From an uncultured Victivallaceae bacterium (GTDB lineage Bacteria; Verrucomicrobiota; Lentisphaeria; Victivallales; Victivallaceae), in contig CALXXL010000005.1 in assembly GCA_944392655.1 (NCBI GenBank), positions 1 through 64,000 of the forward strand: 64,000 bases of DNA. The letters run 5' to 3'. This document shows positions 51,973-54,037 of the stretch, in pieces. Position 1 is the first letter of the stretch. The number at the start of each line of letters is the position of its first letter. The position numbers were made by a program, and so were the translations under genes. The notes under the pieces are model-generated. The model was not told the DNA's origin, made no database searches, and worked only from the letters and a program-made list of their open reading frames with translations.

Positions 51973-53094
51973 TTAGCCGAGTTGCTCATCATCTCTGACA
52001 TTGGCGGCGCTCAGTGCAATACCGATCATGATCATGGTACTGATCAGCGAGCTTCCGCCATAGCTGATAAACGGCAGCGTCAACCCCGATGGCGGCAGCA
52101 ACGTAACATTTACGCTGATATGCAGCAGCGCCTGCACTCCGATCATAAAAGCGGTTGCGGCAATAAACATTTTCCGGCATGAATCGTTGCATTTCCAAGC
52201 CAACTTCAGCATGAGATAGATCAATGCACCCATCATAATAAGCAGAGGCAATGTTCCCAGTAACCCAAGAATTTCGGCCATGGCGGCAAAGATGGAGTCA
52301 TTGTGCGCCAGAGGTAGATAATTCTCTGTCCAAATAGAATTGCCCTGTTTCGCGCCGGTCCATCCGCCGCGTGATATCGCCAGCTGGAACAGTTTGACAT
52401 GCCAGCCGTTGCCGAATAAGTCTCCGCTGCCAAGCGCGTCTATTCTCCGGCAGATCAGCTCCCACCGCCATGCTGCCGCAGCACCGACCGCTGCGGCAAA
52501 AATGATAAAACTGATGATCAGTTCCCGGATTTTTGCTCCGGAAATAAACAGGAAGATCACCATAGTGGTCAAAAAAATCGCCGCTGAACCGTAATCCGGT
52601 TCTAAGGCGACCGGAACGGCGAAGAGCATTCCGGCAACGATTGTCGGCAATACCGCCTTCCAGCTGCCGCCTGCGGCAAGTTTACGCCACAAAAGATAGA
52701 GGGCGAGCAGATAAAACGGTTTTGCCAGTTCAGACGGCTGTATCCGGAAAGCCGGAAAAGGTTCAAACCATCCCGCCATGCCATTAATTTTGGTGCCGAA
52801 AAAGAGTACCGCGATCACCGCAGCCAGAGCCAGAATCCCCATTATCCAGCCGAATTTCTGATAAAAGCTGAATGGTATTTTCCAGCATCCTACCATGATC
52901 GGCAATCCGATAACCAGGAAGATAATCTGCCGGCCGAGAAAGCCCCAGTCATTCAGAGCGACAATCTGAGTGCTGTATATGGCCAGGCATCCCCATAAGC
53001 CAAGAAGTGCGCATAGCGCGGCTATGGTCCAGGATAACGATGAACGCTCCCAGATTATATTTATATCGCCGCTGTTTTTCGCTTGGTTTGTCAT
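51973..53094 (-). CDS. rodA: RodA/FtsW-family peptidoglycan glycosyltransferase
   Basis: The 373-aa membrane protein has about ten helices and SEDS motifs (RIQPSELAKP, ALEPDYGSAA, GLTLPFISYGGSSLIS). SEDS proteins polymerise lipid II into glycan strands with a partner class B penicillin-binding protein. RodA is preferred over FtsW because of the preceding PBP2-like gene, whose end overlaps its start by four bases. The partner here lacks a transpeptidase domain. Confidence 0.88.
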   Translation of the reverse strand: MTNQAKNSGDINIIWERSSLSWTIAALCALLGLWGCLAIYSTQIVALNDWGFLGRQIIFLVIGLPIMVGCWKIPFSFYQKFGWIMGILALAAVIAVLFFGTKINGMAGWFEPFPAFRIQPSELAKPFYLLALYLLWRKLAAGGSWKAVLPTIVAGMLFAVPVALEPDYGSAAIFLTTMVIFLFISGAKIRELIISFIIFAAAVGAAAAWRWELICRRIDALGSGDLFGNGWHVKLFQLAISRGGWTGAKQGNSIWTENYLPLAHNDSIFAAMAEILGLLGTLPLLIMMGALIYLMLKLAWKCNDSCRKMFIAATAFMIGVQALLHISVNVTLLPPSGLTLPFISYGGSSLISTMIMIGIALSAANVRDDEQLG

Positions 53095-53828
53095 TTTTTA
53101 TCCGCCTCCGTTGCCGTATCCGGCATATTGGCTTTGATTATATCATCCACGGTAAACTGCAGAATTACATCCTTGCCGGGAACCGGGTATTGCAGGATTT
53201 TACGGGTGGAAAGTATCGGCTTCCCGAACCGGTCGACAATGATTTCAAATATTTCCGCCGTGCCGGTCAGAACCTTGTCATATTTTTTTTCCAGCCCGCT
53301 TATTCCGGTCAGGCAGTTCTCATTGTTGGCCACCGTGCCGAGCAGTTTGCGTACTGCCGGGTCGTCGTATACCGCGCGGTCAACCCGCGGCCTTACTGCC
53401 AATACCGGGAACTCTTCCACCAGTGGAATAAGCTGGGGCAGCTGTTCCGGAGTCAGATCCTGGTATATCGGCACAATTCCCTCGTCACCATCATTGGTGC
53501 AGGTGGTGGAAAATTCCGGAATCACCGTAATCAGCCGGTCAAAAATTTTCTGCCTTGTTTCCGGTGTACACGAGGAGTAGTCCATGGTGAGATCATAATA
53601 GACGGTCGACCACGCCAGCGGCGTCTGATTTTTATCCAGAATCGTACCGCGCATCGGGTGGATGAAGAATTGTCTGACCGCAATGCTGTTGCCCGGATCC
53701 TGATATCTGTCCCGCTGAATCACGCCAATCCTGAACAGCATGACCAGTATCGCGGCCAGCCATATTGCAAACAGCACAAGAACTATTTTTATTCGCAGAT
53801 TTATTCCAGCTTGCAGTTTTTCCGCCAT
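53091..53828 (-). CDS. PBP2-like protein lacking the transpeptidase domain
   Basis: The 245-aa protein has an N-terminal membrane helix (about 12-34) and then the class B PBP pedestal/dimerisation region: FIHPMRGTILDKNQTPLAWS, a middle insert, LTGISGLEKKYDKVLTG and PVPGKDVILQFTVDDIIKAN. Normal PBP2/FtsI continues with about 330 residues carrying SxxK, SxN and KTG; here it stops just where that would start and rodA begins at once. ATG 53828 has GGAGG 7 bp upstream. It may activate RodA without crosslinking, or be a truncated relic. Confidence 0.75.
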   Translation of the reverse strand: MAEKLQAGINLRIKIVLVLFAIWLAAILVMLFRIGVIQRDRYQDPGNSIAVRQFFIHPMRGTILDKNQTPLAWSTVYYDLTMDYSSCTPETRQKIFDRLITVIPEFSTTCTNDGDEGIVPIYQDLTPEQLPQLIPLVEEFPVLAVRPRVDRAVYDDPAVRKLLGTVANNENCLTGISGLEKKYDKVLTGTAEIFEIIVDRFGKPILSTRKILQYPVPGKDVILQFTVDDIIKANMPDTATEADKK

Positions 53829-54037
53829 CAGCGCCTCCATAGAGATGTTTGAAATAAAAATAGACCGTTTGCGCTAAAAAGCAAATAAGAGGTATAAAAA
53901 AATACCCGCATTCATGAATATTATATCGTCAAACTATTGAAAAAGTTTGAAAAAAACTGAAATCAAGATATAATATATAGTTAAAAATCACCGGATTAAG
54001 ACAATTTCCCGGCATAATGATTTTTTATTTTTTTAAG

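Follow-up and report, generated by a model that had tools for sequence, protein, structure and literature searches.

SEDS polymerases are known to act together with a complete class B PBP. In the window, which is the whole stretch of 64,000 nucleotides analyzed here from an uncultured Victivallaceae bacterium, a SEDS-family gene lies directly behind a gene for a class B PBP pedestal that stops where the transpeptidase would begin. Is this short gene a damaged PBP, or is it a working partner of the polymerase next to it? A sequence-only reading had identified the polymerase as RodA and considered that the pedestal alone could activate it, which would uncouple glycan synthesis from crosslinking.

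The pedestal protein and its SEDS partner

The positions of both genes are given in Table 1. The pedestal reading frame encodes 249 aa from its first ATG; a start at the second ATG (53828), which is preceded by GGAGG 5 bases upstream, gives 245 aa. In Pfam, its sole match is PBP_dimer (PF03717, 5e-15) at residues 60–210 (53211–53663), and the transpeptidase domain PF00905 with its SxxK and KTG motifs gave no match in this protein. The C-terminus lies about 15 residues past the opening motif of the transpeptidase domain, here GKDVILQFTVDD; in the full PBP2 and FtsI of the same genome this motif reads NNVVLTIDS and NIYLTIDE, respectively. The protein of 245 residues noted earlier is therefore real, and its end does fall at the boundary of the catalytic domain. 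It has the TM helix and PBP_dimer domain of a class B PBP and lacks the transpeptidase.

Table 1. Features of the pedestal/SEDS3 locus in the window.
Feature	Position	Strand	Evidence
SEDS3, third SEDS-family polymerase, 373 aa	51973..53094	(-)	PF01098 3.7e-61, tree, AF2 model
SEDS3 Asp266 codon	52297..52299	(-)	Aligned with Asp255 of T. thermophilus RodA, mutated in 6bas
Pedestal-only class B PBP homologue	53091..53840	(-)	N-terminal TM helix and PBP_dimer, without transpeptidase
ATGA, pedestal TGA overlapping SEDS3 ATG, 4 bp	53091..53094	(-)	Sequence

The AF2 model of the pedestal protein (pLDDT 94.3) consists of a helix at residues 2–41 and a pedestal fold. Foldseek matched it to PBP2 (6xv5, 7e-12) and FtsI (8bh1_B, 8.8e-12), and comparison with the class B PBP pedestals in the PDB gave VIA Z-scores of up to 12.9. 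The motifs of class B PBP pedestals are retained in stand-alone pedestals, with R155 and E184 invariant.

The ATGA overlap may couple the translation of the two genes, and it leaves no room for a transpeptidase remnant. All PF00905 matches of the genome are on other contigs (C3, C13 and C4), so that no hidden transpeptidase lies near the pedestal, as the sequence-only reading had stated.

The identification of the partner as RodA did not hold. SEDS3 scored 174 bits against the NCBIfam RodA model TIGR02210 (cut-off 336.7) and 218 bits against the FtsW model TIGR02614 (cut-off 337.5), below the cut-off in both cases. In an unrooted SEDS tree of 112 rows, from which 5 of an initial 117 had been removed as fragments or repeats, 51 SEDS3 sequences formed one clade with SH-aLRT support of 100, apart from the FtsW clade (99) and the RodA clade (98), both of which include sequences from other classes. 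Together, score and clade rule out SEDS3 as RodA and, equally, as FtsW. The SEDS3 model (pLDDT 91.4) is closest to the FtsW entry 8p1u_A (Z 39.5, 2.3 Å over 336 residues); its Z-score against RodA is 34.0, and FtsW and RodA structures overall gave 32–39.5. The catalytic Asp is present in 58 of the 60 SEDS3 sequences that cover the site. By family profile, fold and catalytic Asp, SEDS3 is a SEDS protein with putative lipid II glycosyltransferase activity.

A corresponding tree was built for the pedestals (91 rows, unrooted). The 64 stand-alone pedestals formed one clade (100/99), separate from PBP2 (14 rows, 99/98) and FtsI (13 rows, 100/99). The earlier label "PBP2-like" thus stands weakly on the profile score, which is slightly nearer to PBP2 than to FtsI pedestals, and fails on the tree, where these pedestals have their own clade apart from PBP2. 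On these trees stand-alone pedestals and SEDS3 are each of single origin. An origin of SEDS3 by duplication of FtsW was considered and is unsupported: the tree is unrooted and the signals conflict, with the fold on the FtsW side and the pedestal profile on the PBP2 side.

Conservation and joint loss in relatives

We compared 61 genomes, namely that of the window and 60 relatives. A stand-alone pedestal was found in 53 of them, 52 by protein search and the 53rd (G030) by profile; in G030 it overlaps SEDS3 by 4 bp. The pedestal is short in every genome that has it, and full-length PBP2 at this place, which would have spoken for a recent deletion, was found in none of the 53. Open frames at the 52 loci span 159–352 aa. 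With chosen starts, the median is 231 aa and 46 loci fall within 200–260 aa (51 loci; one contig-end fragment was left out). The recurrence of the pedestal-only frame in 53 of 61 genomes excludes chance.

SEDS3 is the next gene on the strand in 46 of the 52 loci by frame search, mostly with an overlap of a few bases. The conservation of the short form and of its SEDS overlap, which the sequence-only reading had proposed to check, is thereby borne out. Of the six non-adjacent cases, four have SEDS3 elsewhere in the genome (G012, G016, G028 and G041). In G048 both SEDS3 and the pedestal are at contig ends, and in G035, a genome 78% complete, SEDS3 was not found. Overall, SEDS3 is present in 51 of 61 genomes, plus a contig-end fragment in G004. 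Both genes occur in 52 genomes, the pedestal only in 1, SEDS3 only in 0 and neither in 8 (Fisher p 3e-9, not corrected for relatedness). The genomes without the pair are G007, G018, G033, G034, G040, G043, G050 and G055; these losses are spread over genera g7, g15 and g18 and families f5 and f8, and each of these groups except f8 also includes a pair-bearing genome. NG86 dN/dS of the pedestal was 0.10–0.21 in five pairs with dS < 1 (pairs with dS > 1 or undefined were disregarded), which indicates purifying selection.

The pedestal alignment (A1) contains 44 sequences, the window and 43 of the 52 loci L004–L055. L004 is the window itself; L011, L014, L026, L031, L038, L040, L047 and L049, which are fragments, near-copies or have doubtful starts, were left out. 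The SEDS3 alignment (A2) likewise contains 44 sequences, the window and 43 of 46 neighbours (L004, L011 and L040 left out).

A profile of the 44 pedestals was searched against 387 genomes over the phylum, and at least 79 have a clear short-frame pedestal (rows G343, G346, G364 and G379 are fragments or doubtful). Among the matches listed, all short-frame pedestals are in the class of the window, Lentisphaeria, and those in other classes of the phylum fall in long frames of full PBPs. Two SEDS3 peptides searched against 84,980 named species gave 35 loci, assigned to Victivallales, Victivallaceae, Lentisphaeria, Lentisphaerae/-ota or uncultured bacterium. Victivallis vadensis DSM 14823 (L100) is among them; as a type strain in culture that carries the pair, it makes the system accessible to experiment.

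Two families depart from the common form. In f9 (L111 in G090, L112 in G164, L120 in G331) the pedestal has no adjoining SEDS3, and the only SEDS gene of G090 is of RodA type. In f13 the frames of SEDS3 are intact and Phe or Gly replaces the catalytic Asp; these two genomes (L113 in G214 and L118 in G322) account for both SEDS3 sequences without this residue. For the order, the comparative tests (adjacency, joint loss, single origin and selection) point to a pair that acts as a single functional unit, and the two exceptional families, f9 and f13, lie beyond the order.

Gene surroundings and other wall genes

In deeper relatives, 31 loci from 30 genomes have an MraZ gene upstream of the pedestal at a distance of at most 1 kb; the one checked, at L041, matched PF02381 at 6.9e-13. 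At 28 of these 31 loci, the gap between this mraZ2 and the pedestal holds an ORF of 69–105 aa with a single, strong hydrophobic helix. The resulting order, mraZ2 – small single-TM gene – pedestal – SEDS3, copies the front of a dcw cluster (mraZ – ftsL position – ftsI-like – ftsW-like). We liken the small protein to FtsL by its position and single TM helix. One member was scanned and gave no Pfam match; the protein at the canonical FtsL position of the window's genome likewise matched no FtsL family. Ten loci with an unlinked mraZ2 were inspected, and the small gene follows or overlaps mraZ2 in 8 of 8 pedestal genomes. It was not seen beside mraZ2 in G043 and G055, both without pedestal and SEDS3. 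The window's genome carries mraZ2 (141–632) and the small gene (646–927, 93 aa, single TM) together on contig C21 (L225:141–927), unlinked to the pedestal pair.

Several other neighbours were observed. At the f9 loci L112 and L120, the pedestal is preceded by mraZ2 and the small TM gene. In the congener G001 (L074/L063) the pedestal pair lies about 3–5 kb upstream of the canonical dcw mraZ. A membrane histidine kinase that includes a receiver domain, by weak Pfam matches, is encoded directly upstream of the pedestal in Victivallis vadensis and genomes like it (L100:3403–5142, L098:276–1838); this cluster of proteins occurs at 12 of 51 loci, some of which represent the same genome twice. In some genomes of family f1 a conserved gene of about 220–290 aa is found upstream of the pedestal (L078:4269–5012 and relatives); its product has a signal-peptide-like start and gave no Pfam match over the cut-off.

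The genome of the window (2.34 Mb, 37 contigs) has three SEDS, three PBP_dimer and three PF00905 genes. The canonical sets are complete elsewhere: ftsW–murG, rodA, mraZ–rsmH–ftsL-position gene–FtsI and mreC–mreD–PBP2 (names not from Pfam were read from translations). Since RodA/PBP2 and FtsW/FtsI are intact elsewhere, the pedestal and SEDS3 are a third, extra pair, and the pairing with RodA proposed earlier was not confirmed.

The search of this genome for stand-alone transpeptidases, which had also been proposed, gave PF00905 on C3, C13 and C4 and one weak LD-transpeptidase match. The third PF00905 gene (C4:114486–115277; L060:4487–5278) encodes a stand-alone protein of 263 aa with a lipoprotein-like start, which is perhaps a class D beta-lactamase and not a crosslinker. 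Short PF00905 genes akin to it occur in several relatives.

No class A PBP (PF00912) was found in the window's genome, and PF00912 is absent from 59 of the 61 genomes. In Lentisphaeria its distribution is patchy, with occurrences noted for G048, G024 and genus g40. All seven sampled genomes of g40 (G117, G141, G144, G149, G161, G200 and G319) have PF00912 and lack the short pedestal. We considered the module as a replacement of class A PBPs. As a simple rule this is not supported, because several other Lentisphaeria hold PF00912 and the module together (e.g. G124, G220, G245, G283 and G300), and 8 module-less genomes also lack PF00912.

Function of the pair and comparison with known systems

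We favour, with moderate confidence, the reading that the pedestal and SEDS3 form a dedicated glycan polymerase with a pedestal-only activator and no crosslinker of its own. It builds on conservation, joint retention and loss, single origin, the catalytic Asp and the predicted fold. The earlier idea that a pedestal alone serves as the partner of a SEDS polymerase is upheld: the form is ancient and conserved, under purifying selection, overlapping, and nearly always kept or lost jointly with its partner. The ancestor would have had a paralogous mini-dcw operon, mraZ2 – small TM gene – pedestal – SEDS3, from which mraZ2 and the small gene were relocated in the family of the window. The pedestal, its transpeptidase permanently lost, would hold and switch on the FtsW-like SEDS3; it would bind through its TM helix and touch extracytoplasmic loop 4, so that the polymerase is kept active, and the small TM protein perhaps acts as FtsL does on FtsWI. 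SEDS3 would make glycan strands, with lipid II as the most likely substrate. Either PBP2, FtsI or an LD-transpeptidase would supply the crosslinks in trans, or crosslinks may be unneeded.

Contact between the pedestal and extracytoplasmic loop 4 is reported to activate SEDS proteins (PMC8078798), and a pedestal variant of PBP2 is reported to activate RodA (PMC6207328). From these mutants the pedestal would be the carrier of the activation signal, and a conserved polymerase site with a partner cut down to the activating domain fits known SEDS activation as these papers describe it. Two other reports count against this reading. In S. aureus, PBP1 cut before the transpeptidase is described as undetectable (PMC9426605), so an isolated pedestal can be unstable; in E. 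coli, when the FtsI transpeptidase is inhibited, FtsW strands are described as entering a futile cycle (PMC8078798). Both suggest that crosslinks are supplied in trans or that the product is not ordinary wall.

The fixed substitutions of SEDS3, the Asp loss in f13 and the f9 pedestal without adjoining SEDS3 also count against the favoured reading. At positions 90% conserved in FtsW and RodA, SEDS3 retains 25 of 35, Asp266 included. Ser replaces F267 and His replaces N325 in 50 of 50 SEDS3 sequences (four further fragments and the long-branch L156 were left out), residues otherwise universal in FtsW and RodA, and the second Glu of an EE pair is absent. These SEDS3-specific changes neighbour the catalytic Asp or lie in a TM helix, so the chemistry or the substrate may differ, and the remodelled pocket leaves room for a product other than ordinary wall. 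A change of substrate is indeed the main rival: SEDS3 would polymerize or transfer a lipid-linked glycan other than lipid II, the pedestal would be a regulator only, and the transpeptidase would have been lost because the product has no stem peptides. Besides the fixed changes, it can draw on the SEDS fold being common to the O-antigen ligase WaaL (Z 14.4) and on the 8 of 61 genomes that have lost the pair with nothing evident in its place. We nevertheless rate it as unlikely, since SEDS3 retains most of the SEDS-conserved positions, its fold is far nearer to FtsW, and its context in deeper relatives is a mini-dcw operon and not a polysaccharide locus.

A regulatory pseudo-complex is more doubtful. 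SEDS3 and the pedestal would bind lipid II or divisome proteins and modulate the canonical pairs without making glycan. Every stand-alone pedestal examined lacks the transpeptidase, the catalytic Asp is lost in f13 (2 of the 60 sequences covering the site) and the f9 pedestal persists without adjoining SEDS3, all of which would fit; retention of the Asp in the other 58 speaks against it. We give very little credence to a transpeptidase in trans, in which the pedestal would bring SEDS3 together with the PBP2 or FtsI transpeptidase domain, crosslinking being shared, not uncoupled. All 61 genomes have at least one PF00905 gene and most have two full class B PBPs, but the sequences hold no sign of such a contact. 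A recent truncation, pseudogene or assembly error is practically inconceivable, as the short form occurs in 53 of 61 genomes and in other families of the class, its dN/dS is well below 1 and the SEDS3 overlap leaves no space for a remnant.

We return to the pair as a dedicated glycan polymerase with a pedestal-only activator. A wider version is held more tentatively: a class-wide, ancient third SEDS system in which the class B PBP has become a pure allosteric activator, the remodelled SEDS site serves a separate glycan job (uncrosslinked peptidoglycan or another lipid-linked glycan), and the system has its own MraZ and FtsL-like activator. The locus is a natural experiment on the pedestal alone, which is retained over a bacterial class and which the 61 genomes show lost only together with the polymerase. 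It suggests that, in nature, synthesis of wall strands need not be coupled to their crosslinking, provides structural and biochemical studies with a minimal activator, and raises the question of how strands without a dedicated crosslinker get used. SEDS3 may be a third wall polymerase where most genomes lack class A PBPs, and a synthase of this kind would itself offer beta-lactams no target.

Among the titles and abstracts listed in searches of open-licence literature, none described a class B PBP without transpeptidase or a third SEDS protein in Lentisphaerae; an earlier description may exist elsewhere. RagB (YrrS) of B. subtilis is likewise a protein without transpeptidase proposed as a SEDS stimulator, but it is not a PBP and acts on ordinary RodA, and the excerpted text states no link to a class B PBP pedestal (PMC12457691). 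The dcw-encoded peptidoglycan synthases of C. difficile resemble the pair as a dcw-type SEDS–class B PBP system in a specialized role, sporulation, whereas transpeptidase loss is not mentioned in the excerpt of that report (PMC10693644). With RodA–PBP2 (and MreC) the module shares a SEDS protein paired with a class B PBP pedestal whose profile is slightly nearer to PBP2; in contrast, SEDS3 is not in the RodA clade, no mreC or mreD adjoins it, and mreC–mreD–PBP2 and RodA are found elsewhere. FtsW–FtsI (with FtsL) is matched by the nearest fold of SEDS3, by the pedestal fold and, in deeper relatives, by the upstream mraZ and the single-TM gene at the ftsL position. Unlike FtsW–FtsI, the SEDS3 pair has no transpeptidase; SEDS3 lies outside the FtsW clade, the small TM protein scanned matched no Pfam family, and canonical FtsW and FtsI coexist with it. 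Against these systems, the surprise lies in how old and widespread a SEDS–class B PBP form without transpeptidase is, and in its having a mini-dcw operon of its own.
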